Positions 10,067 to 55,400 of a stretch of 64,000 nucleotides of DNA are shown piece by piece. The stretch covers positions 18,835,685 to 18,899,684 of the forward strand of contig OX457044.1 of assembly GCA_949752735.1 (NCBI GenBank), given 5' to 3'. Source of the DNA: Lumbricus terrestris (Eukaryota; Annelida; Clitellata; Crassiclitellata; Lumbricidae). Under the pieces are notes generated by a model. It was not told the DNA's origin. It saw nothing but the letters and a program-made list of their open reading frames with translations, and searched no databases. Numbering within the stretch: the first letter of the stretch is position 1; each line of letters starts with the position of its first letter. The position numbers were made by a program, and so were the translations under genes.

Positions 10067-11563
10067 ATGTCGGCATCCTCCTTCTCTTCTGGATCGGCGG
10101 CAGCGTCCGACTGCAAAGACCCGCAGCTGTTGCATCTGCTGAAGACGCACTTCAGCTCCAACGACACCGTCTGGCAAATGGCCTTCGAAGGTCAACGCTC
10201 CTCCTCCTGTCCACTGCTCGCCAACGTCTCCAGCGATGGTCTCCTCCATTCCAACGACGTCCCGGTGGTCGACGTCGGAGGCTCCGGCGACGCCACTCTG
10301 CTCGGTGAGCTGCTCTACGCCTTCCTCACACCGTTCCTCCTCGTCCTCGGCCTAGCCGGGAACCTCATCTCGCTCAAGGTCTTCTCGTTTCCGCAGCTCC
10401 GGAAGCTGTCGGCCAGCATGTACCTGACGGCGATCTCCGTGTCCGACTGCCTCGTCCTCGTGACGTACGTCCTCCTCGACTGGCTGAACCGCGGTCTGCC
10501 GCTCTGGCCTGGCTCCCACCGCGTCCAGATCGTCAACACGCGAGGCGTCTGCCAGTGCTTCCTGTTCGCCTCCTACACGTTCCGCTTCGTGTCCGTCTGG
10601 CTGATCGTCCTCTTCACCATCGAGAGATACATCGCAGTCTGTCGACCCTTCCACCGTCGCGTCATCTGCACGAAGACGTTCGCCTACCGCGCCATCGCGT
10701 CCGTCGTCGCTCTGGCCGCCCTCCTCAGCCTCTACAAACCGCTCCTCAGCGGCGTCTACACGACCACCAGCACCGTCCCCGACCCCAACAACAACAACAA
10801 CAACAACAACAACCTGCCTTTCACGACGTCCCCCTCTACCATCGGTAACTCAGCGCTGCATGGATCAGCGCCGCTCACTCTCCCCTTCCCAACCACACTC
10901 CCGGACAGCAGCAACAGATCCTCAGCGACGCCAGAGTCCGATTTCGCCGGCTGGGGCACCCGGGCGGCTGCCGGCGACATCCTAATGACCTACCCGGACG
11001 ACGTGACGGCCGAACCGTCGTGCCGTCGCAATCCGGCCTACGACGACTCGTACGTGAACTTCGTGATGGACGTGACGTACGGTCTGCTGATCACCGCCGT
11101 TCCATTCGTCCCGATCTGCGTCTTCAACATCTCGATCCTGTGGACGATGATCAAACGAGACACGAAGATCCGCCACCTGAAGATCATGGTCCCTGAGAAG
11201 AAGGTCCGCCTCGAGTTCACCGTCAACCTGCTCGCCGTGTCCGCTGGCTTCGTCGTCCTCAACATGCCGTACTTCATCGTCTGGTGCCAGCAGTTCGTCC
11301 AAACCCTGTACCCCGAGGACCCGTCGCTGGCCATCAGGATCCGCGACAAGCTCCTACTGACGAAGGTCACCTTCTACGTCAACTACGTCATCAACTTCTT
11401 TCTGTACAGTCTCACCGGTGGTTACTACCGCAACGCACTCGTCCGTCTCTTCTCGTGCAGCGAGGTAAAGCAGCGCACGTTCAAGATGAGACACGTCTCT
11501 GTCTCGACCACCGTAACGCACTTCTCGTCCGTTAAGGAATTGAAAATAGGAACAATCGTCTGA
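10067..11563 (+). CDS. Class A (rhodopsin-family) G-protein-coupled receptor, neuropeptide-receptor type
   Basis: A 498-residue open frame without introns, expected at the plasma membrane. TM1 has the GN motif (GLAGNLISL), TM2 has SVSDCLVL, and TM3 ends in E-R-Y (residues 186-188), the DRY-equivalent G-protein switch, followed by IAVCRP. Cys162 or Cys164 at the top of TM3 and Cys319 in extracellular loop 2 can form the conserved disulfide. TM6 carries N-M-P (399-401) without the usual CWxP. TM7 has N-F-F-L-Y (443-447) in place of NPxxY, a variant known in invertebrate peptide receptors such as FMRFamide/myosuppressin-like ones. The N-terminus has N-glycosylation sequons (NDT, NVS). Loop 2 is about 100 residues long and holds a nine-Asn run (241-249). 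The gene is much richer in GC than its flanks. The start ATG is the first in frame after a likely splice acceptor at 10009. The ligand cannot be told from sequence. Confidence 0.9.
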   Translation: MSASSFSSGSAAASDCKDPQLLHLLKTHFSSNDTVWQMAFEGQRSSSCPLLANVSSDGLLHSNDVPVVDVGGSGDATLLGELLYAFLTPFLLVLGLAGNLISLKVFSFPQLRKLSASMYLTAISVSDCLVLVTYVLLDWLNRGLPLWPGSHRVQIVNTRGVCQCFLFASYTFRFVSVWLIVLFTIERYIAVCRPFHRRVICTKTFAYRAIASVVALAALLSLYKPLLSGVYTTTSTVPDPNNNNNNNNNLPFTTSPSTIGNSALHGSAPLTLPFPTTLPDSSNRSSATPESDFAGWGTRAAAGDILMTYPDDVTAEPSCRRNPAYDDSYVNFVMDVTYGLLITAVPFVPICVFNISILWTMIKRDTKIRHLKIMVPEKKVRLEFTVNLLAVSAGFVVLNMPYFIVWCQQFVQTLYPEDPSLAIRIRDKLLLTKVTFYVNYVINFFLYSLTGGYYRNALVRLFSCSEVKQRTFKMRHVSVSTTVTHFSSVKELKIGTIV

Positions 11564-31406: not shown

Positions 31407-34400
31407 CTACAATAAAATACTTCAGCTGTAAGGTAGGACACATGGACACGGCAATTGGACATTCATGCAGCACCGTTTGTTCACTGATTTCACAACTGAA
31501 TTTGTAAAACAAATAGAAATCATATAATAGTTGCCAGGCGCTTGTAGAGAATTGAATTACTTGAGTTGGAAGTATTGCATATATCTTCTTTTGTTCTCTG
31601 TCCTCAGGCAGGTTCGTATATCTAATGACGCCAATCATCTCCATGAATTTCTGTGCCTTTCTCTTCAGTCTCCTGTAGCTTTCCTTTGTCGTCATCCAGT
31701 CTGGTAGCATCGTTCTTGGTCTTACTCGTGTCTTTTTTCCCTCCATTCTTCCTTTGATGACTTCACTTATTATGGTGTCACCTCTCACGAAGTGACCAAT
31801 CCAGCTTCTCTGCTGTCCTCGTATTGACCCCAGCATTGACCATTTCTCTCCCATCATCTGTAGAATTTCTCCATTCATCTTGTATTCCCTGCAGCTGACT
31901 CTTTCCATTCTATGCCAAATAATTCACATTTCAAAAGCCTCTTATATCATCCATCCTCGTCGTCCATGTTTCCGATCTATACAGGTCACAGGACTACACT
32001 TCACAACAGCACATATATAATTATATATGTATGTATATACATTTGTTCAATGAAAAACCACAACCACACATGAATACATAAAAGAAAGGACAATGGAAAT
32101 GGCATATTTAGTTACAGTCATTCAGTTAAGTAAGCTTATAAAGATGAGGGGGATGATTTCTCTTCTCGTCAGTATAATATTTGTGGGATAAAAATTGCGT
32201 TCGTCCTTTGCTGGCAGTGAAAAGTCATGTGGTCTTTATCGAAGGTTATGGCAGTGTCGAGCCAATGGGGGAGTGGGGTGAAAGAGGTCATGAAGAACAC
32301 GGGAGTCGCATTGCCTAACAGAACAAAATAGGTCAACAGCGGCCTTGGCATGAACCTCAGGCAGGGCCCCATTCGCAGTGCATGGCGCAACAGTCACTTC
32401 GTTAAATGCACCACAAGTCTTTTGTGCATGGCATGTGATGAGGCCAATTGTGAACATCCCTTACAATATTATCATAAGGTTTGTGAAAAACACTCATTTG
32501 ATTCTTGCAGATCCTGTTATTCCACCCACACACACACAAAATTGTGCGTGGCTCCAGCAAATCACAGTACTTGTCCTTTGTGCTCAATATGCAGGCAACA
32601 AATTCAGCCTGCTCGTGAAAATATATATATTATCGAAGAGAAGACTAAAAAAGGTGTCAAGAAAAAACCCAGATTCAGACTGTTATAACAAAGCTAACTT
32701 TTTGGGGGGCTCAACTCATCCACTGTATATTCATTCATTCATTCATTGTTATAATTTATATAGCGCCCCTTCAAGAAACTACTCAGAGGCTCTCCCAGCC
32801 CAGCCACGGCAAGAGCCATTTGCTTCAAATTATTCTGCAGCAAAGTGCAACATGGCAATTTAACATCACTATAAACTTGTGTAGCAAGTAATGGAAGTTT
32901 GACTCAAAGTCCTTGAACTGTGAGGACCTACAAGACTCAATCGCATTCCACAGTAAATACTACATGAACAAATTCAGCTTTATATTATTGTGCCTCGACC
33001 TAGCGCAAGATTTGCAAAATACGATCATTAACATGTAACTAGCCAATTTGTGCACAAGCAGCTTGCAAGATCAACAACATTAAATCGTCAATGCACAGAC
33101 TCTCTTTTCATCAAAGATTCACCTTTAAAGTCCACACAACTGTACTCTGACCATACATGTAAATACTGTTCTTTGAATTTATAGTTGCCACGCAGAACAG
33201 AAATTCACGCTACCCACCATCTAAACAAATACGAATGCCAGTTTCTTACCTTTGAGTACTGAACCCTTTCATCGAATTCACGTGCAACGAATTGCAATGC
33301 TTCTGGAATCCTTGTAACATCTTCATGATGGTCGACCATAAAAGCAAGGACATCCAGCAGAAACTCATCGCATGCATCATCGTCGACTTGGAAAATGGCA
33401 CAGGCAAAATGCCTCCGTACCTAAAAAACACATCGATATGGCTTAGCATTTGCATCGGACATTATTGTTTAATGGAAATGAAATGCTGTGGTATCGACAG
33501 ATAATGAGAAGTTACTCTGGTCGTGAAGAGCAATGAACATGACTTATGGGGCCAGAGTGGGGCTATAACAACTGTCTTTATCATTCAATAAGTGGGGACT
33601 GTGGGGGTGGTGGTGTAGTGGTGGCGTCGAAGCCGGAAGGTTCGAGGTTCAAATCCACCTCAAGTCGCCGCATAGGGACCTTGGGCAAGTCCTTCACTCG
33701 CAATTGCTCAGCGCTTTGGCATGAAACTCCGATGCAGTGTCCGCTCTGCAGTCGGTAGCGCCTTTGAGTAGAGAGCTTGAAGAGGCGCTATAACAAGTGC
33801 GCATACAAACAAACAAAACAAACAAACAATACCACAGTTTATCAACTTGATAAGCATGATGTGCTGAGCTGGTTGCCCGGAGCCCAGAGTATCTCGCATC
33901 GGATTGCTGCTCTGCACACTGCATCCTTGGTTGTGCTCTATCTTGCATACACGATCTCCATCACCCAGTCTCTGACATTGAAACGTGTCGGGTTCTTTGC
34001 TTTGCTATGAAGAAGCGTTCTTCTATTTCCGCGGGCTCACTTAACTGCCAGGCAACATCGAGCTTTATCGGTTGTAGGACCATTCATCTGGAACGATCTC
34101 CCGTCAAAGCTGAATTCATTATATCTGACCAATAAAACTTTGTTTCATAAATCTCTGAAGTCTTTATTCTTCTTGGCGTGGCTGGACTGGGAGCGCTTTG
34201 CTTAGATTTTGAAGAGTGTACTATATAAATCCATCAAATGAATGAATGAATGATGAATCTATTTATTGGCAAAAGTCAGCAGCCATTTCTGTGCTATTCT
34301 GTGCAGTAACGAACAAATTTGTCTTCCTAACATTAGCTGAACATGTTTACATAAACTGGCCACATGCGTCCATTTGTGGGCTCCGGTCCCAGCTGCAAAT

Positions 34401-40400: not shown

Positions 40401-43400
40401 ACGCATTCTAAAGACTTGACCATTCTAAAGACAATGTGGACCTGAACAATAGCTTTTTAACTTACAGTGCATAAGACATCTCATTGCAGAATGCAGCCAT
40501 GCTGGGAACGAATCTAGAAGACAAAAGAAATTGTCACTGTAAGAAAAACCAATGGAGCAGCTTAGCATAGACAAAAAGCAGTCCCTTCAGTTAGCCCTGA
40601 AGCAGCTATGGTATGTAGTGCTTAAAATAATTTCAATGTCCAATCCTTGGCTTAATGAGGGCAGCAGGCTAGCCCTCTCCCATGCCATCTCATCTTCTCA
40701 AGAACAGTGTATGGCTGTACATTCCGTCTAATCATAGCTGAGTTGGCTGGGGCATACATATGCAGAACAGAAATCCGAAAAGTTCTGCCCTGGCATGGAT
40801 CTGAACACCCTACCTCTCGACTGACAATCCAGCATGCTAACCATTACACTATCGAGCACTGCCTAGTGCAACACAGGTCAATATACTGTAAGTCAATGTA
40901 AAGCATAAACTTGTGCAAAAAGTGATTTAAAATGCAACACAGAAAGTGAGGCATTCAAAAAGCATAAGGGCATTCCAGGTAAAATCCATATCTCGGAAAC
41001 CGGTTGACCCAAAAATCTAGAATTCTGGTATTGAGCGTTTCTCATTGGGTTCTACCATCTTGCCAAATTTCATCCAAATCCGAGATGGTCATGCTGGAAC
41101 ACTGTGATGATTTGACCTGGAATGACCCATAATGTATAGATAAATCAGTCACTGTAAATAATTGTTCCAAGTCAATAATACCATTCAGTATATATAATGT
41201 TTGCATACATGTGTCCATGGGCTGGGAGGTTTGAATGGTAACACACTAGCATAAAGGGACGTGTGTTTGATGCACACTAGCTCATAAATTTGACTCCGTA
41301 TTCAAATCCTTAGGGGACTATTGCAATATGAGCGGTGTGAAAAATAGAGGGAATTGCAGACTGCCATAAAGTTCAATTCAACTCCTTTTAAACATACTAT
41401 TATCTGTTACTACCATGCCATCTTGGCCCAGTGGTATGGAATGCCTCCCACTTGAGCTGCGCCTGTTCCCTAGATCACTCTCTGACACATTCTATAAGCC
41501 CTTAAAAACTGTTCTGTTTGTCCGTGCAGTAGTTGGGAGCACCTCTGAGTAGTTTCCTTGAAGAGGCGCTATATAAATACTTGATTGAATTAATGAATGT
41601 AATATTACGGCAGGCCTACTTGTCAGATTGAATTAATAAACGAATAGTATTATCATTGCCCAATGCCCACAAAAAAACACATTCTGCAGCCAGACATTTA
41701 TGCAATATACAGATTGACTCAGAGACAGTCAAGAGCCACGTACTTTGACTGTCAATGTCGCAGCTGTTGTCTTCACTGTCAGCACACGTCAAATTGCAAA
41801 ATATGTTTTCATGGTCACCAGGAGCAGGAACATAAAATTCGTTGAGATCATCGACATCCAAGACAATACACAGCCTAGAAAAGAAGGCAGTATCATTTTC
41901 AAAGAATAGCCTTTGCAAAACATTCCACATTGTTGTATTGTATCTAAAATTATTTCACTGCAGTTAGGGAATAACCGGGAAGACATTTTTCTTGCTTGTT
42001 TGCATACATGTAGTATCCTGGCAAGGAAGAATTTCTGAGTCAGGATATTAAGCATGGGGAGTTCACAGTTATGGGACCAGAGCTACAGGGAGCAGGGAGT
42101 TTGCTTGATCTGCAATAATATTCATGCAATACATGACAAGGATGGTTAAGAATACAGCAAAAAAATTGGCAATTGCTTTACTGAAAATTAGCTCAAATAA
42201 GGTAGAAGATAGGGTGAGTACCCGGCCTTCGAGTAAAACAATGTGTTGTGTGAACCCTTAACAAATCACAGTAAAAGTTACCAGAATAGACAATGCACCT
42301 GGACAAGAAGACATGCTAATAATGAAACTCATGCAGTATTAACAATCTAAAAGTGGCACAGATAATCAATGCTGAGCACTTTTAATTAGTTTGATATAGC
42401 ACCAGTGGTGTAGTCAAGGAGCAGTTTCGGGGGTTAAAACCCCCATTGGCTTAGGAAACAAGTTTTTTTAAGGCTATTTACCCACTTAAATAAGAAAAAC
42501 AAAACAATTGCTGGTAGCAACAATTGTTTTTCTTACTTTATTCCTTTTGTTACTTTATTCCCTTTTTATTTACTGTAATACTATTGGGTTGGTGTCAGGA
42601 AGGGCATCCAGTCAGGCCATAAAACTCCCAAAATTACCCCATCATAAATTCTGGGCTACGCCACTGTATAGCACGCACACAGTTGGTGAAACTGAGAACA
42701 GTTTGGAATGTGTCGCATAGTAAAGGGAAGCCTGTTCCAGGTTGTAGGATCAACCACACAGAAGGAACAGCTCTGCATTGTCGCAGGGCGGGTGAAAGGT
42801 ACCATTAAGTCACTGTGGACACAGAGGAGCACAGTGCACATCATCCTGTCCAAGTGAAGGAGGGCAACAAAGTTCAAAATCGTGTCAAATGAAAACAAGC
42901 AAACAAAAATAAGCGCTTGCCTGATTTTGAACTCGGCAAAACATCTCTGCTTTAAGTCATCCTCGCTTATCAAACGTGCAAACGATTTCTTCCATAGACC
43001 CAAAGCAGATCGCATCCCAGTGTTAATCGGTTGCACCGTCCCCTGTTGCCTTACACTTGACGAATTACTCTGCTTCATGTATTTTACCGAATCCTCAACA
43101 ATGACAGCGCCTGATGTCATTTGTCTCTTCTCATCAACTGACTGAGAAAGTGAAGTAACGGCATTCGGTCTGAACGTTTGGAAGTTGAGCGCTTGAATCT
43201 GAGGAAACTCTTCTGAATTGCGATTGGCGACACTGATCGGTCTACGCATGGTAATGAATTCAACAGGTTTAGGGCAAGGCATTGTGTTAACCTGTGTCAG
43301 TGCCCTTCTTTGCTGGGCTCTACAGTGGGAGCTGGCCCCAGTCTCCTCTTTAGCTCTGGGCAGTTTCCAATACAACTGCTGCTGTGCTCCTCTTTCTAAC

Positions 43401-46400
43401 GGCTGCACACGACTCATTTGACGACCAGCATAAATTGAATTCTGAACATCGGACAGAACTGGTATTCTGGGCGACCGCGTCAGCTGCAGCGCACCAAAGA
43501 GACTTTGGTTTTCTTTAAGAGCCGCCGGTGCCGTCTGCTTCACTTGATTGATCTGCCGCAATGGGAGGACGGTCTCTCTGTTCATAACTTTAACTGGAAC
43601 CTCCTCCTTAGCATTGAACTGTCTCATTGGAACATACTCCTCGACAACATTTCTTCTCTTCGGACGAAAATCATCTTGCGGCTGAAACATCACAGAAGAT
43701 TATTGTCTTAAACATCCTAAACCGTTACCAGTACATCAAGTGCTTCAAAGTACGGGAGCATCATCATTATTAACTAGCTTTTTTACCCATCCTAAGATGG
43801 TCTCATTTACAGGGGCATTATGCATAGTTACATCATCGTTTCTGTTTATTTGCATTATTGTTTGACCAGGTCTTGGCAAGTAAAAGTGTGAATTCATGCC
43901 GTGAATGCGCCATGATTTCCATAAAGTTATACAAAAGCCTACTGCGACTTTTGAACAACTTCGCTGGGAATTTCTACTGGCAAAAATCATTATAAAATAC
44001 ATATATATACATACATATATATACATATATAATGTATCTATACATTTATATAGCGCCTCTTGAGAATGAATACATATACAACCTGGAATGGCCTCCCTGT
44101 TACACTGTGCTTATTGCCCATGGATCACTCGACACAATTCCGTCGAAATCTCAAAACTGCCATATTTAGCCGTGGTTGGGAGCACTTCTGAGTAGCCTAC
44201 CTCTGAGAGGTGCTATATCTAGAATCCTAAATATTAATAATAATAAATCTATATATATATATATATATATATAAATCAAATGTGATCTTTACGATGGTGC
44301 TCAATGGAGTTCAGTAGATATAAGTGTAGCGACGTATAACTACGCTACGGGTCGCTAATATTATTTTATTTAATTTTTGATCGATTATGGGGTTTCAGGG
44401 ATCTGATATATTTGTTTTATTTCTGTATTTTTGAGCTGCCTTGTGTGACCTATATTTTAATGTTGATTTGCGCTTGTCACGGGTCACAGCGACCGCTGAC
44501 GTAGGCAGCAGTCGTTGCTGTTCCATTAATTGGTATATGTTCACACGCTCTCAGCGATCGTCGGTCGCTGTCTTCAAAGGCCGTGCCGCTTGCAGTCGAT
44601 GAGGGTAATTAAACTTTCGCACGCTCTCTGAGGTGGTCTGATGATCAGAGTGAGCGAGGAATACAGCCAGACAGACAAGCACAGGCAGGGACACGGATTG
44701 AGAAGGAAACACTGTAGGCGTGTGGGCCTGTGTATGTGTATTTTCGCAAGGTTAAACTGGTGCATCTGTGGTCTACGTGATCAACGGCAGATGACGCTTT
44801 TCAGAAGGAGAGATAGACAGAGAAAGACAGCCACTGCTGGGCAGACGCGGAGATACACAGGAGAGGACACAGGTGGCAGCTGATTTTTGGCGCCTTGGCA
44901 GCTGCTGGTTCGGCGCGCTCGGCTCTTCAGCTGCGCATGCGTAGTAGAGGGACGCTCTCCTTGTCAGGCAGTAATAAAAGAGCAGCGCAACGCTGAGAGG
45001 CACAGTTGCGCACAGGATCTCAGGGCGGTCGGATGTATTGCGGCGGTTGGTAGTTTTAGGCTCGATCAAGTTGGTGAAGCATGGCCAGGATAAGCGCCTG
45101 CTTGCACTAGTTGCGCATACACGGATTTTGTTGTCGATTCATTCTCTCTCGACATGGAGTCGATTTAATAAAAGAGTTTGTTTGTTGCGAGAAATATATC
45201 AGCGTTGTTGCGAGTTTTGCCTTCGCTTTCGCATTGGATCTACTCCTGGATTAATCGGTCAAGGCCTCTCTTCGCCCTGTCACACGGAGTGATTTATCGT
45301 GGGCTTCGAATCGTCAGCGCTCTGCTCTCGTTCTTCGAAATTGTGTTGCGAAGCGGTTGTTCGTATACTTGCCTAAGGGCGTCTTTCTCAAACGGCTTGG
45401 ATACATAGCCGAAATTGTTGTTCATTGCGAGAAATCAGCGTCGGATTTAGCTGATCTTTTCGGGCGTTTCAAACTCGACGCCTTTCTGTGTGTTTCGTCG
45501 TCTTCGTCGCTGTTCTTCGCACACGATCGGCTTTGTCCCTTGTCTTCGGACATAAGGTACGCTTTATTGGGGAATTAATACGATCGGTTATTTAGATATT
45601 TTGGGCTGAACTGAAATTGGCTGTGGGACTTGAGAGTTAATCGGGATTTAATTTAGGTATACTCCGGTTGATAGGTGTTTGCATTGAATTGTTGCATTTG
45701 ATTTTCATTGAATGTCTTTACAAAGGATAGGAACTGATAATTAAACTTACTGACTTTTATGTTTGATTGCTTTGAACATAATTGATGTCAATTGAAGATT
45801 CAATTGATTGTGAATAATAAGAAATATTAATTAAACTTCTGACTTTGATTATTGATGGCTTTGAATGTAACGGATGTGGATTGAATGCTTGATTTGTTAA
45901 TAAGAATAACTACTTCGTTCACTGCTAGCGATATTGATTGTGAGCTATAAAGATAGGAGTCATTTCTATAGCGCTATGGAGGAGTCTAGGCCAGTCACTC
46001 CTGCTCAGCCTTCTAGGCCCCCTTCTTCTATGGAGATATTGCTCGAAGCAATTCAGACTAATGCTAAGTCTACTCATGAGGCGATGTCTTTTATGCAGTC
46101 GTCCATTCATACTAATGCTAAGTCTATTCATGATGCTATGACTTCTATACAGTCGTCTTTGCAACTGAATGCCAGAGAGACGCAAGAGGCGATTGCCACG
46201 GTGGAGTTTAATGTCCTGGCCGTGCAATCAAATGTTGGCGATGCTATTTCCTCAGTGCAATCAAATGTAAGAGAGGAGATCTCGGCTGTAAGAGATAACG
46301 TCAGGGAAGCGCTGACGGAAGTTGTGTCACGATTGGAAAGGCTAGAGGCATCGCCGGTACCCAAGCCTGCTGTGGATTTGAACCCTGGTTACCTCACCGC

Positions 46401-49400
46401 TATTACCACTGCGGACGCGCCATACCACTCGACCATCGGCCTGGAAGAAACTTTGGGTGCTAGGCCCAAAGATTTCACGCAACCTGGTATATTGCGAAGA
46501 AGTGATAGATTGGCTAGTAGGCCGCCAATTTCATATAGGGAGTCCGGCAGTCGAAATAACTGGCCGCCTTTCCATCGTTGGGATTCGAACCCGGAAGTCA
46601 CCTCATCCTGTCCTCCCTCTATCTCTAGAGCTCGTCCACAGCAGCACGCGGCCATATCGAGCGAGGATCCGGAAGTGGCGACTCCGGGGAGGCCGGTAGG
46701 GGCGGGCGTTACAATTGGTCCCAGCCAGTGGGGTCAAATTAGTTCTAGAGATTTTGGCGATGATAGGTTAGAAGAGGAAACTGACTATGCTAGAACAGGC
46801 GAAATGGCAATTTCTTTTGAAAGAAGGAAGGAAAGGGAATTTGCGGATATTGTGGATATAATGTCTGATGATGGTAGTGTAGACATTGAGATCAGCAAGA
46901 TAATGGAATCTAGACCTAAAACTGTTAAAATAATTGATAACAGAATGCATGCAGCACGGCAACCGGAGTTTAGAAATTTTGAAGTGAATAAACCGATCGC
47001 TAATAAATTGTCATGGGAGGGGGGTGATAAGGTCAACCCAGTCCCTTTGGCCTCTTCGTCCCTTCCTCTCGTCGAGTATCCTCGACCGGATCCACAATGG
47101 AGAATTCAAGCGTCGCTCGCAAAGGTCGATCAACAAAGAGTGGAAATGGCACCGAGTCGGGTCGACTTTACACAACCAGCGTCGGTAATGCCGACCTATC
47201 AGTCAATGCCTGACTGCGTCCTCGACGGTCGTGCAACGTCGACCATGGTTGGTCGAGACTACGCTCGACCCGACCTTCCTCCTGGACCAGCGGCGATGGC
47301 AACGGTCGACTGGATGCAACCATACGCTCGACCCGACCATTCAAACATGCCGTGGAGGTATGCCCCGACTTACACTCCGAGCGCTTTCTACGGTAGCAGC
47401 GACAACCGGGTTTGGGTCGACCCGCCTCGCTGTCTCGACCCGCTTCGACCAAGCGACGCCGTCTTTCCTCGGTGGCCAACGGTCGTGGAATCGGCGAGGA
47501 TGAGTTCGTGCCTCGGCGCGCAAAACTTCGGATTTAGCCGTGATGCCGAACTACCGCGATGTCAGGCGGTAATAAAGTCGACACCTCTGGATAGAAATGA
47601 AACGACGGGCGATGATAAAGCGACGTCTGCGGTTGGTGAAACGAGAGCACGGACGTCTACCAACGCTTCAGTCGGCCCTATTAAAGTTGTCCCGACGACC
47701 ACCGTCGCAACGCAAACGACCGGCGACTGGGAGCTACCGTCGATCAGTTCAAAGGGAACAGTCAAAGAAACTGAACCGACCGCGTCTGCAACAGCTAAAG
47801 AGGGCGAGGTTAAACAGTCATCGACTTCTCCTCCTAAGCCAACACAATTCCTGAAACTCGGGTCTTTTAGCGGAAAGACGGACGTTGAAACATTCTTACG
47901 AAAATTCTCCGTGTGCGCCAGGAATAACCGATGGACGGACGAGGAGAGGTTGAACCAATTAGTAGTCTCATTGGTTGAACCGGCGACTCATTTGCTGAGC
48001 GAGTCGAACGCAGATAGCCTGGACACTTGGACGGCTTTGGTCCAGCGACTTCGTGAACGATACGGCAACGCTGAACAACAAGCCCTGTTCCAAACGCAGC
48101 TAAGCACCAGGAAACAGAAAGTCGACGAGGATATGGGCGTCCTGGTGGACGACATCCGACGTCTCTCCACGCGAGCCTATCCGGGTTCCTCGACGGCTCA
48201 CAGCGAAGCAATTGCTGTTCGGGCATTCTTGGATGCCCTGAGAGATAGAACGCTTGCTCTGAAAATCCGAGAGCGAGAACCGAAATCCCTCGACGAAGCC
48301 TACAAGGTAGCGATGCGATTGGACGGCTATCAGAAAGCAGAGGCCGGCGGCCATGAACAACAAGACCGACGACACGGCCGTGTCAACGCAATTAAAGAAC
48401 AGGAAGAAGAGTCGAAAGTAAAGGATCTGGAACGGCGGATGGAGCAAATGAGGAGACAAGTGGAGCGACTAGAGAAGGAGCGACAATCCGTTTCGGCGCC
48501 ACAATACAGAGACAACAATCGCGGGCCGTGGAGAGGTCAGAACGGGTCAACAAGAAATGAATGGTCGAATAACAATGGAAGTTATGGACGGGGAACTCCG
48601 CGATGTTTCCTGTGTCATCGGCTCGGTCATTTGAGCTCGGCGTGCAGACTTCGGCCATATGTGGAAACAGAAACGGAAGCAGGACCTTCCGCGCGCCGAT
48701 GCTTCGAGTGTTCTGCGACGGACCACATAGCGCGCCTCTGTCCTCTTCGACAACAGCAGCAGGCTCCACCTAGCGACAACCTTGGACAACCTGTGGGCGA
48801 TAACCACGACAACCCCAGTGTTGGTCGTGTGTTCGCTGTTCGGTCCGCTCCAGCGCCGAGCAGGGACCAGCGGAACGGGCAGAACCAGGAGCGTCGGTCT
48901 CGGATGTCGCCATCATCGACGAGGAGGCGAGATGGTGACCGGAACTTGCAAAATGAGGAGCGCCGCTGTTTCTACTGTGACGACCCCTCCCACCTCCTGC
49001 GGGAATGTCCGCTCCGCAATGGGTCTTCCGACGACCACCACTGGCGATCGCTGGGTGAAACGACAGGAAGTCGTCCGCCTGAGAACTTCACGTCAGCTGG
49101 GTAACTCTGTTAAATGACCGCTTAATTTGCGGCCATTTTGAATGCAGGAAGCTTCTGTAACACTGTTTTATTTTGATTTTGATGAATACATTTTTGATTT
49201 ACATGTGGAAGGCTTTACATGTGTGTGTTACTGTGTAAATAACTGAATTTTTACATCGTATATTGTGCATTCATATGTGTATTGCATAGTATTAATATTT
49301 GTATTGCCTTGCATTGTACTTCAGCGATGGACAATTTTATTATTGCCTCTGCTGTAGACAGAAAACTGGACTGTCATTGCCTGCATTGCGCTATATAAAT

Positions 49401-52400
49401 ATTGGTTTTACCTGTTGATGTATATATAAGGTTGCCTATTTTAGTTAAGGCCATTGATGACGATTATGTGACCTTGAACTTAGACTTGCAGTGGAATTAG
49501 CCATGATGATGTGATTATGTGATATTATGACCTGCGGTGAAATAGTAGGCCTATATGTTTCTGAGTTAATGCTCGGAGGGGAAATTTGCATTAGGCCTAT
49601 ATTCCGCTTTATCTACAATCTGATTTATGAAAAATAATTTTAAGAGATTTGCACAGTTAAATTTTAATGCTCCTAATTTCTGTGGTAGTGTTTTTATATT
49701 CGTAACTATTGTCATCGTATATATATAATTGTATAGAGGCATGTTAATTAATTTCAGTGAGGCGCTGAATGAATGCTTTGAGGCCCATATAGCGCTTATC
49801 TGCAATCTGTCGGGATTAGGCCTATATATATATGGTTTACCCTGAGGATAGGCCCATACTATTCTGAGGATTTGAAGACAAATTTCGGCATTTTATATCA
49901 ATTAGGATGATAGGCCTACTTGTTTTAATAGCCTAGCGCGGAGGAATAGGCGATAATTTAGTTATGCTGTGTAATTTTTGCATTAGGCCTAGTTTTGCGG
50001 TTTTGCCTGATTCCGCCTGCAATGGAATTATATGATTAAACTGGTTGCCTAATAATATTTATTAGGACTAGGCATAAAATAATTAGGAGCTCTGTCTGTG
50101 CGAGAAATGAGGTTGGCCTAAATGATTTTGTAGCATTGGATTTAATATTATTATTAATCTTGTGTAGATTTATATTTGGATCAGTGGATCAATGATGACC
50201 TAATTTTGAGTCTGCAAATTAGGCCTAATCTAGTGCACGACAACGTGACCTCCGACGCTGCCCGACGCCTGAGAACAGGGCGATTTAGTTGATGTTGCTG
50301 GCCGCTTAGAATCTCACGGCTTCTACAGATTCAGTTGTAGAGAGAGTGGGGATAGCGACAGCGTAGTCCGTGGGACACATCAAAGGCAGTGATAATTATT
50401 GCTCGTCGTGGATGGACCGACGGAAGGATAAGTAACGTCGTTAAAATTATTATGGGACTATATAATCATGATTTGATAGTAGGCCTAGATTTGAAGGTTG
50501 ATAGTTAATACAGGCGCCAGATATGTGGTAGGCCTAATTTCTATCCTACTTTTATGAGCGCTAATTAGGCCTAACTTTGTGCAGGTCAGCGCGACCTTAG
50601 TCGTACGATGCACTTTAACCTACATGTAAAAGGATCATGTTTAGTTGCCTAATTCTCACGGTTAGACGCACGCTGTAGATGCATGGCGTGGGGAAATAGG
50701 TACTGAGTCGACGCATCAACGCGGCGATTATTATCGACCGATGATTTTCCCAGGCGCTGACGCGTGTGTGGCCTGATGCATGTGCTAATAATAGACTGCC
50801 TGAAGGATGATGCAAATGCATAAGATAGACTAAAGTGGCCTAACTGTTGATTTGTGCTTTAGACTAAGATCTCATATTAAAATCATGATAATCTTTTTAG
50901 GCCTATGATTTTTATGGTTACGCTGTATCGTGAAAGACGATTACACAGTGTGACTGTTCTGTAACGTTAATTGCAGTAATATGTTACGGTGACCTAATTA
51001 AGTTCTTATTGTTCTGTGCATAATCGGTTGCATTTTTAATAAATAAGTAGGCCTACTGAAAAATGCTATGAAAAGAGCGGCTTATTAGGCTGAAGTTAGG
51101 CTTAGTCTTTTGCGGTAAACTTTGATGGGGAGCCTACGGATAGTTATAATGAGCATTGGCCTTTGGAGACTTAAGCTGTGTGTGTAGTCTCAGGTAATTT
51201 GCTATGATAGCACCGTTGTTAATGGGATTAGAGACTTAGGTTTAACTGCTTAGATGAGTCTTTAAATGTAGACGTTTGCCTACAGTGAAATGCCTAAAGA
51301 AGTCTCGATGGTAAAGGCCATGGGTGGCCTATTAATCAGATGACCTGTTGTAAAGGTAACGAAGGTCTAGTGGTTTTTGTGGCTGTCCCGTGGGTTCTTA
51401 AGTCAATGCTTGCCGTGGAGGACTTTGTGCTTAACTAAACTCAAGGAGACCTATATATAGAATTGCTTTTGAGCTTTACTGAACTATTAGCGATGGAGCT
51501 ATATAATTATAATAATAATAAATGTTTCTTTCGCTTGAACTGACATTTAACGCTAAAATGTGAACTTTCTGATGCTTACGTTGAGGACTGTTCGTTGCAT
51601 ATATTTTTAATTCTTGCATTTGAATCATTGATGTAAAAATTGGAGTATGGCCTTACTAACATTTCAGGATCCATTTTTCCAATTAAAAGGATCCTGAAAT
51701 CAGGGAGGGCCGAGAATAGTGTAGCGACGTATAACTACGCTACGGGTCGCTAATATTATTTTATTTAATTTTTGATCGATTATGGGGTTTCAGGGATCTG
51801 ATATATTTGTTTTATTTCTGTATTTTTGAGCTGCCTTGTGTGACCTATATTTTAATGTTGATTTGCGCTTGTCACGGGTCACAGCGACCGCTGACGTAGG
51901 CAGCAGTCGTTGCTGTTCCATTAATTGGTATATGTTCACACGCTCTCAGCGATCGTCGGTCGCTGTCTTCAAAGGCCGTGCCGCTTGCAGTCGATGAGGG
52001 TAATTAAACTTTCGCACGCTCTCTGAGGTGGTCTGATGATCAGAGTGAGCGAGGAATACAGCCAGACAGACAAGCACAGGCAGGGACACGGATTGAGAAG
52101 GAAACACTGTAGGCGTGTGGGCCTGTGTATGTGTATTTTCGCAAGGTTAAACTGGTGCATCTGTGGTCTACGTGATCAACGGCAGATGACGCTTTTCAGA
52201 AGGAGAGATAGACAGAGAAAGACAGCCACTGCTGGGCAGACGCGGAGATACACAGGAGAGGACACAGGTGGCAGCTGATTTTTGGCGCCTTGGCAGCTGC
52301 TGGTTCGGCGCGCTCGGCTCTTCAGCTGCGCATGCGTAGTAGAGGGACGCTCTCCTTGTCAGGCAGTAATAAAAGAGCAGCGCAACGCTGAGAGGCACAG

Positions 52401-55400
52401 TTGCGCACAGGATCTCAGGGCGGTCGGATGTATTGCGGCGGTTGGTAGTTTTAGGCTCGATCAAGTTGGTGAAGCATGGCCAGGATAAGCGCCTGCTTGC
52501 ACTAGTTGCGCATACACGGATTTTGTTGTCGATTCATTCTCTCTCGACATGGAGTCGATTTAATAAAAGAGTTTGTTTGTTGCGAGAAATATATCAGCGT
52601 TGTTGCGAGTTTTGCCTTCGCTTTCGCATTGGATCTACTCCTGGATTAATCGGTCAAGGCCTCTCTTCGCCCTGTCACACGGAGTGATTTATCGTGGGCT
52701 TCGAATCGTCAGCGCTCTGCTCTCGTTCTTCGAAATTGTGTTGCGAAGCGGTTGTTCGTATACTTGCCTAAGGGCGTCTTTCTCAAACGGCTTGGATACA
52801 TAGCCGAAATTGTTGTTCATTGCGAGAAATCAGCGTCGGATTTAGCTGATCTTTTCGGGCGTTTCAAACTCGACGCCTTTCTGTGTGTTTCGTCGTCTTC
52901 GTCGCTGTTCTTCGCACACGATCGGCTTTGTCCCTTGTCTTCGGACATAAGGTACGCTTTATTGGGGAATTAATACGATCGGTTATTTAGATATTTTGGG
53001 CTGAACTGAAATTGGCTGTGGGACTTGAGAGTTAATCGGGATTTAATTTAGGTATACTCCGGTTGATAGGTGTTTGCATTGAATTGTTGCATTTGATTTT
53101 CATTGAATGTCTTTACAAAGGATAGGAACTGATAATTAAACTTACTGACTTTTATGTTTGATTGCTTTGAACATAATTGATGTCAATTGAAGATTCAATT
53201 GATTGTGAATAATAAGAAATATTAATTAAACTTCTGACTTTGATTATTGATGGCTTTGAATGTAACGGATGTGGATTGAATGCTTGATTTGTTAATAAGA
53301 ATAACTACTTCGTTCACTGCTAGCGATATTGATTGTGAGCTATAAAGATAGGAGTCATTTCTATAGCGCTATGGAGGAGTCTAGGCCAGTCACTCCTGCT
53401 CAGCCTTCTAGGCCCCCTTCTTCTATGGAGATATTGCTCGAAGCAATTCAGACTAATGCTAAGTCTACTCATGAGGCGATGTCTTTTATGCAGTCGTCCA
53501 TTCATACTAATGCTAAGTCTATTCATGATGCTATGACTTCTATACAGTCGTCTTTGCAACTGAATGCCAGAGAGACGCAAGAGGCGATTGCCACGGTGGA
53601 GTTTAATGTCCTGGCCGTGCAATCAAATGTTGGCGATGCTATTTCCTCAGTGCAATCAAATGTAAGAGAGGAGATCTCGGCTGTAAGAGATAACGTCAGG
53701 GAAGCGCTGACGGAAGTTGTGTCACGATTGGAAAGGCTAGAGGCATCGCCGGTACCCAAGCCTGCTGTGGATTTGAACCCTGGTTACCTCACCGCTATTA
53801 CCACTGCGGACGCGCCATACCACTCGACCATCGGCCTGGAAGAAACTTTGGGTGCTAGGCCCAAAGATTTCACGCAACCTGGTATATTGCGAAGAAGTGA
53901 TAGATTGGCTAGTAGGCCGCCAATTTCATATAGGGAGTCCGGCAGTCGAAATAACTGGCCGCCTTTCCATCGTTGGGATTCGAACCCGGAAGTCACCTCA
54001 TCCTGTCCTCCCTCTATCTCTAGAGCTCGTCCACAGCAGCACGCGGCCATATCGAGCGAGGATCCGGAAGTGGCGACTCCGGGGAGGCCGGTAGGGGCGG
54101 GCGTTACATAACAAAGAAACATGAATCCGCAACTTGATTGAAAAAACTGAGCCATTCCGCACCATTTGGTTTTCTTTGTCATCAAATGTAATTGTTCTGT
54201 TCACTTTCTTGTGTCCTGATGGCTCAGCTGGTGAGATTGGCTTTCCTGGTGTCCGAATGTTTATCAGAGCACGGCAGAAAGAGAATGGAGATCGCGGTCC
54301 AGCGGCTCGACGGCAAAACCTAGACACACGAAAAACACCGTTAGCGACAAGCACATCTAATATTATTGTGTGGAGTCTTCCATACAAATGCGTGCTTTTT
54401 CTGTGGATGGCCCGGAAGTATGGAATAGCCCCTCTTTTGAGCTGCACCTGTTCCCTATGTCACTTTCTGACACATTCTGTAAGCACTTGAAACTGTTTTT
54501 TGCTGCACATGCTGGAGTTGGGAGCACCTCTGAGTAGTTTCCTTGAAGAGGTGCTATATAAATACTTGAGTGAATGAACATATTAAAATGCATGGAAAAT
54601 TAATCACTCTCGTTGTTAAAGAGCTAACTATGACCAAACAGGAAAATGAGAGCAAGGCACAGTAAACAAAGACACATAACAAGAGATAAGTTTAAACTGT
54701 AAATACAGCTATCGGTAATATGAGTTATGCAACTACAGACAAGTTCAGATGCAATTCAACGCAGTATGGTTTACCAGTTGAGGTTGTCAACTATCTGCCA
54801 CTATCAGCAGGGCTGTTTTTAAGGAATGTTTAGAACTGCACAACCCCCTCTTTCCCTTCCCATCCTCCATGGTAAATTACTTCCAATCGGATGACAATTA
54901 CCTTTTTTGCTAGTTTTAACTGCACAGAACTTATGACAGAAGTGCTTCTACAGCTGCACAAATCCATTTAGAACTGCACATTTTGTGTACAACTGCACGT
55001 TAAAAAAAGCCCTGACTATCAGCCTAAAACTGCCATTACTCTTGAGAATTAAAACAAGCAACCGTCAAAGGCAGAACTTCAATGCCTTTTAGCAGTTTCT
55101 GTTTCTGTAATAATATATGGTGCAGAAGTAAACCTATACATTTGGTGTATATACCACGCTCCATCATATTTACGCAGTTCATACAAAAGATTGTTAAAGC
55201 CGAGGTGCGCAAGATCATGCAGCAAGCATTGGATCAGAAATTCTATTTCTCTTGACATATTTTCAGACCATGGGCGGAGTTTGGTTTCCGTTCTTGGAGG
55301 GGCTAAAGCCTTCTTGGGGGGCTAAGCCCGAAAAAAGATGCCATTTACACGGTTAAAAAATGAATCTGGGTCTTCTTGGGGGGGCTTAGCCCCCCTAGCC

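Follow-up and report, generated by a model that had tools for sequence, protein, structure and literature searches.

A gag-only LTR element whose gag begins in the LTR and crosses the primer-binding site, its pol-bearing partner, and probable copying of the primer tRNA into gag

An element flanked by two long terminal repeats (LTRs) that carries gag and nothing recognizable as pol raises the question of how it moves and, where its gag starts inside the LTR and spans the primer-binding site (PBS), of what replication does to that reading frame. Such an element lies in a 64,000-nucleotide stretch of DNA (the window; G000:C10:18835685-18899684 of a 1.06-Gb assembly). We consider it very likely that it belongs to a young gag-only family of Ty3/gypsy type which coexists and recombines with a pol-bearing partner, and in which a variant of the PBS is made by copying of the primer tRNA; transcription, translation, co-packaging, trans-mobilization and the fate of strands at the PBS are the parts of this explanation that we infer.

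The 5' and 3' LTRs are 100% alike over 2389 bp (2391 bp counting the AG preceding each), and the probability of a frame as long as the 1042-codon gag staying open by chance at the given GC content is about 6e-20. The initial annotation had described a gag-only LTR element in which gag starts in the 5' LTR 738 bp before its end, crosses the boundary between codons and passes through the PBS. This description was borne out: the LTR holds exactly 246 codons, the frame reads through the PBS within ATTGGTCCCAGCCAGTGGGGT, which starts at 46714, and tblastn with four pieces of the partner pol and eight related proteins detected no pol in 49105-51717 and gag alone elsewhere in the window. Pfam analysis of Gag gave zf-CCHC above the cut-off, while Ty3_capsid (E value 0.00035, under the curated cut-off) and Retrotrans_gag remained below theirs; three knuckle motifs are present, and the best match among solved structures had an E value of 0.028. 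The candidate polypurine tract (PPT), AGGGAGGG, called by place and make-up only, is found in 15 of 16 compared copies, one having an altered last base. A near-perfect 11-bp inverted repeat (TTTCAGGATCC ... GGATCCTGAAA; 51662-51699) lies directly before the PPT and is kept in the 16 compared copies, apart from minor differences in the loop or at its edge.

Probing the genome with the LTR returned 1028 candidates, 40 of which were scored; among these, the spacing of paired LTRs falls into two classes, one of about 7.1-7.6 kb and the other of about 10.8-11.0 kb, and two further pairs are spaced by 8.8 and 9.3 kb. Seventeen elements, the window element included, were read; they were chosen by likeness to the window LTR rather than at random, and comprise 11 gag-only copies, 5 pol-bearing copies and 1 deletion copy. 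A pol-bearing partner of the kind that the initial annotation had proposed to seek was found among them, and all five pol-bearing copies have the LTR, the PBS and the start of gag inside the LTR in common with the window element, the PPT being shared by the partner as well. The LTR-borne start of gag, which had been singled out as an unusual layout, is therefore real but not peculiar to the gag-only form. The pol-bearing copies match the window element through gag to knuckle 2, carry about 3.7 kb where the tail would be, and rejoin the match at 49113, which corresponds to the pol stop codon. In one of them (L009) the recognizable pieces are, in order, gag-asp_proteas, RVT_1, RT_RNaseH, Integrase_H2C2 and rve, i.e., the protease, reverse transcriptase (RT), RNase H, integrase order of Ty3/gypsy (Metaviridae). 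In the pol of Ty1/copia elements (Pseudoviridae) the integrase stands ahead of the RT, whereas in L009 the RT comes before the integrase. In three of the five pol-bearing copies Gag and Pol are read in a single uninterrupted frame, which is broken in the other two. The partner pol has many relatives, the 1e-60 threshold being passed by 6150 of 8000 scored candidates; the closest of the scored candidates have 72-76% identity, and the named matches are from animals (pseudoscorpion, fishes and amphibians; 34-47%). A search of viral_contigs for relatives of the RT gave five stretches that fit the pattern, none of which codes for a relative.

Pattern counts over the genome, made with zero mismatches and consequently missing diverged copies, gave 266 gag-only tails and 117 pols, a total of 383 that is close to the 404 PBS forms counted. 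In lists of 100 tails and 100 pols, none of the tails has a listed pol closer than 7 kb.

Recent movement is evident in both classes. Divergence between paired LTRs was measured for 14 of the 17 elements and amounts to 0-2 substitutions in all of them (eight with 0, four with 1, and two with 2). Perfect 4-bp target duplications are present in all 15 other copies with both ends found (the right end of one copy was not found), and the duplication of the window element, TAAG/TAAC, agrees in 3 of 4 bases. Exact runs shared between gag-only and pol-bearing copies reach 2085 bp in C2b, 1772 bp in C2c and 1758 bp in C1d, and adjoin stretches of clearly lower identity; because these shared runs are so long, we conclude that the two classes recombine. 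The longest exact run that the window element itself shares with pol-bearing copies is 386 bp. Mosaicism is also seen among pol copies, as 12 of 15 are nearly alike over the 400 nt past the PBS (at most 3 differences from one of them), and the same 12 split into 7 groups by the final 600 nt of the LTR. Co-packaging with template switching is the best explanation, with exchange at the DNA level as the alternative. A hotspot of exchange located exactly at the LTR/PBS border was considered and not upheld: low correlations between neighboring blocks occur at many places in all 57 copies, and in the 15 pol copies the values are 0.12 at the border and 0.14 and 0.17 at two places in the LTR, only the interior of the body being high (0.89-0.98).

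The PBS occurs in two forms. After the LTR, 13 of the 17 elements carry ATTGGTCCCAGCCAGTGGGGT, and the remaining four carry ATTGGTACCAGAAGTGGGGT, which is one base shorter; in the whole genome there are 344 PBS of the frame-keeping form and 60 of the shorter one. The latter is the exact complement (18/18) of the 3' end of a tRNA-Leu(UAA) gene present in the genome, with CCA added. For the frame-keeping form, an adjoining ordinary tRNA T-loop was found nowhere in the genome (0 matches, with a pattern that excludes odd T-loops), and another tRNA as its primer was rejected within that scope. Self-priming was likewise rejected, no match of 7-14 nt to the complement of the PBS region being found in the LTR. 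The frame is open across the LTR end, the PBS and the body in 32 of 33 normal copies, the sole failure having a stop within the LTR, vs. 0 of 24 variant copies. Among 37 copies not selected by their PBS, 33 were normal, 4 were tRNA-type and none was a hybrid. The variant affects both classes: of 100 copies listed for each, it is present in 11 with pol and in 17 with the tail. The tRNA pattern matches the genome at only one other place, L063, which shows no DNA similarity to the window family; at L063:1475-1520 (G000:C47, ~32359-32404), 46 nt of tRNA-Leu(UAA) (95.7% identical) stand at the place expected for a PBS and adjoin sequence ending CGACA, presumably an LTR end.

In the proposed pathway, the gag-only family is non-autonomous and has the same LTR, PBS and PPT as the pol-bearing family. 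Its RNA would probably be packaged together with that of the partner, whose Pol would carry out reverse transcription and integration. In both classes gag begins in the LTR and crosses the PBS, and the primer would be tRNA-Leu(UAA), which is an imperfect match for the inherited PBS. Progeny that retain the PBS copied from the tRNA rather than from the RNA would have a PBS that matches the tRNA perfectly but is one base shorter, and their gag would be shifted out of frame near codon 250.

The best reading of the variant is that gag codons are repeatedly overwritten in the progeny when the primer tRNA is copied; the pattern is the one expected if the tRNA is copied into the plus strand. We regard it as probable that a host tRNA acts here as template for protein-coding sequence, 18 nt of tRNA-Leu(UAA) being written into gag again and again, and that the mismatch between tRNA and PBS breaks gag in about one in seven extant copies of both classes, which would constitute a replication-coupled brake. 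The tRNA-type PBS might instead have arisen once, or in a few copies, and have spread by recombination and trans-mobilization. We consider this unlikely, even though exchange between copies is frequent and one LTR haplotype is found in 5 of the 24 variants compared (4 already found and 20 sampled from the other 56, set against 33 normal copies). Not only is the identity of variant and tRNA complete (18/18), but the 24 variants are scattered over 20 upstream and 11 downstream clusters; five of the downstream clusters have more than one member, and four of these five also include normal copies. Nor are variants nearest to each other, the nearest neighbor being another variant in 0.35 of cases, vs. 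0.41 with shuffled labels (0.22-0.46 for five other choices of flank, none exceeding its shuffles), and another variant is found within 5 differences per 1000 for 3 of the 24. Moreover, the variants C2c and L078 do not differ from a normal pol copy either before or after the PBS. Recurrent copying of the tRNA nevertheless has several points to contend with. For only 4 of the 24 variants is there a normal copy that differs at no more than 5 positions per 1000, so the direct parent of most would lie outside the sample. The tRNA-type PBS has a share of 15%, whereas simple strand segregation would give 50%; in HIV/SIV, according to the excerpts considered here, the PBS of the progeny comes from the tRNA or the genome 50-50 after a mismatch (PMC4549124). 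Given the heavy recombination, fewer original events may have been spread by exchange on both sides. The explanation as a whole also has to reckon with a gag that is broken in 5 of the 11 gag-only copies (three by the PBS change and two by other stops) and with selection on gag that may partly date from pol-bearing ancestors.

The claim that the LTR bears part of gag could be upheld, in that this part behaves, on the evidence of indels and pN/pS, as coding sequence and is presumably translated. Of 32 distinct gap events found within it in 15 copies, 28 have lengths divisible by three, vs. 6 of 29 between the LTR start and the ATG (Fisher p 1e-7), and its length ranges from 630 to 783 bp in steps of three. 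The last 600 nt or less of the LTR are open in the gag frame in 56 of 57 copies and in 0 of 57 in either other frame, and pN/pS is 0.33 among the 11 gag-only and 0.25 among the 5 pol-bearing copies; copy pairs not being independent, these figures are effect sizes. Because of its weak likeness to the N-terminus of a relative, P0013 (E value 0.007), and its resemblance to the gag-like frame upstream of the tRNA stretch in L063 of the same genome (E value 3e-7), the LTR-encoded part looks like an old part of Gag. An account in which it is untranslated, an internal ATG being used and the open frame incidental, would draw on the many ATGs that all 15 copies have in the LTR ahead of the gag ATG, on a TATAAA 30 bp 5' of that ATG in 8 of 15, which would leave hardly any leader, and on the alignment to P0001, a protein from another source, which starts only at residue 389; with the triplet indels, the pN/pS values and the single open frame against it, we judge it very improbable. 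The gag-only tail, missing from the partner copies read, has a pN/pS of 0.29 (9 copies), with Fisher p values of 3e-5, 3e-5 and 1e-8 in the three of eight window pairs tested. P0001 aligns to the tail including the third knuckle and continues into an aspartic protease; because the tail resembles this three-knuckle, protease-bearing protein, pol was probably lost in an ancestor of the gag-only form, and the tail probably derives from a three-knuckle lineage. Origin of the third knuckle as a duplicate of the second was rejected, with just a weak 19-nt match. It is very hard to credit that the gag-only copies are merely deletion derivatives of the pol-bearing element, without independent life and with pol lost during or after each insertion. 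Such a deletion exists, since C1e is a separate one, and P0001 does hint at a protease-bearing ancestor, but all 11 gag-only copies read have one tail block and one right junction in common, the tail has evolved under purifying selection, and its pattern occurs 266 times in the genome; loss of pol in this single copy, which the initial annotation had named as the outcome that would undo its proposal, was not seen. The idea of a capsid parasite that borrows a polymerase stood insofar as the element is non-autonomous and has a pol-bearing partner, but it need not be a parasite. Because purifying selection acts on the tail and the partner's Gag is made as a fusion with Pol, no separate Gag being evident, the gag-only copies might supply free Gag and the fused Gag-Pol copies the enzymes, a division of labor with which the excess of tails over pols also agrees and which would make the element a helper. 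We hold this to be possible but doubtful, as cis packaging alone could explain the selection, and a fused Gag-Pol can yield free Gag by processing, as that of Tf1 does.

How the window element relates to known systems can be stated as follows. HeT-A and TAHRE of Drosophila provide an animal case of a gag-only element dependent on the polymerase of a relative but, unlike the window element, they are telomeric and non-LTR. The gag of Ty1 of yeast also starts in the LTR. Its PBS, as described in the sections of PMC4974528 considered, lies inside the gag frame, as in the window element, but Ty1 belongs to the copia group and uses tRNA-iMet with a 10-nt acceptor-stem PBS, whereas the window family has a Ty3/gypsy-type pol (in the partner), tRNA-Leu(UAA) and an LTR that holds 246 gag codons. 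PBS switching in HIV/SIV is likewise a matter of progeny inheriting the PBS of the tRNA or that of the genome, but there, in the excerpts of PMC4549124, the PBS is in a noncoding leader, while in the window family its change breaks gag. Plant TR-GAG elements (e.g., AT5TE33540 of Arabidopsis), one of which was seen transposing in Arabidopsis, resemble the window element, in the parts of PMC8704663 considered, in their pair of LTRs, their lone gag frame without pol, the presence of a related autonomous element in the genome and recent movement; those parts make no mention of gag starting in the LTR or crossing the PBS. The window element has the LTR pair with PBS and candidate PPT and the single gag frame without pol that define TR-GAG, but differs in its gag of 1042 aa, its LTR of 2.4 kb, its strong exchange with the partner, and its animal-type genome, as indicated by a 498-codon open frame with a rhodopsin-type receptor domain (7tm_1) at 10067-11563 of the window. 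It works like a TR-GAG but is not classed as one; partner, youth and exchange are observed, and trans-mobilization by a relative, as in TR-GAGs, is what we infer. Judged by titles and abstract openings, no animal element with gag in the LTR or the PBS in gag was recognized in the open-licence literature, and neither was a precedent for the combination of 246 LTR codons with a gag broken by primer copying.

Copying of the tRNA into gag is a consequence of the layout that goes beyond what the initial annotation foresaw. Through it, the known rule of PBS inheritance, from tRNA or genome, becomes a heritable coding change, the cost of running gag across the PBS becomes visible, and each insertion may record which PBS strand was kept, so that PBS strand fate, primer identity and co-packaging would become measurable from genome sequence alone. 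If the reading is true, the family steadily converts coding copies into help-dependent ones. The apparent animal counterpart of the plant gag-only elements can be studied in one genome together with its partner, its copy numbers, the ages of copies and the exchange between them.

Table. Features of the gag-only element, in window coordinates
Feature	Position	Strand	Basis
Left target-site duplication TAAG, imperfect (3 of 4)	44321..44324	+	
5' LTR, TG...CA, 2389 bp	44325..46713	+	identity to 51720-54108
gag, 1042 codons, no interruption	45976..49104	+	ATG 45976, stop 49104
gag codons 1-246 inside 5' LTR	45976..46713	+	738 bp, exactly 246 codons
PBS TGGTCCCAGCCAGTGGGGT within gag, 2 bases past LTR; frame-keeping form, imperfect fit to tRNA-Leu(UAA)	46716..46734	+	
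Capsid-like region of Gag, residues 626-797	47851..48366	+	Ty3_capsid below cut-off; relatives align here
Zinc knuckle 1	48604..48645	+	motif position
Zinc knuckle 2	48700..48741	+	Pfam and motif position
Gag-only tail block, in place of the partner's ~3.7 kb of pol	48754..49112	+	comparison with pol-bearing copies
Zinc knuckle 3, in tail	48967..49008	+	motif position
3' noncoding region without pol	49105..51717	+	translation; tblastn
Candidate PPT, purine-rich AGGGAGGG, immediately 5' of 3' LTR	51702..51709	+	15/16 compared copies
3' LTR	51720..54108	+	identity to 44325-46713
Second copy of gag LTR-coding segment, in 3' LTR	53371..54108	+	LTR identity; open frame
Right target-site duplication TAAC	54109..54112	+	

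Some further observations concern individual copies and the surroundings of the element. The gag-only copy L026 (G000:C2:57471500-57481499) has about 2 kb extra near its 3' end that match neither class. Three copies with the tRNA-type PBS, each with a gag-only tail, lie about 7.5 kb apart on the minus strand (G000:C7:63678694, 63686198 and 63693690) and look like a tandem array with shared LTRs; pol copies at C13:39124700 and 39135623 show a similar spacing. The LTR part of gag contains a 54-bp in-frame tandem repeat (46051-46172 and 53446-53567 of the window). Just upstream of the element, on the minus strand, 42656-43693 holds a 345-codon open frame with no Pfam match.

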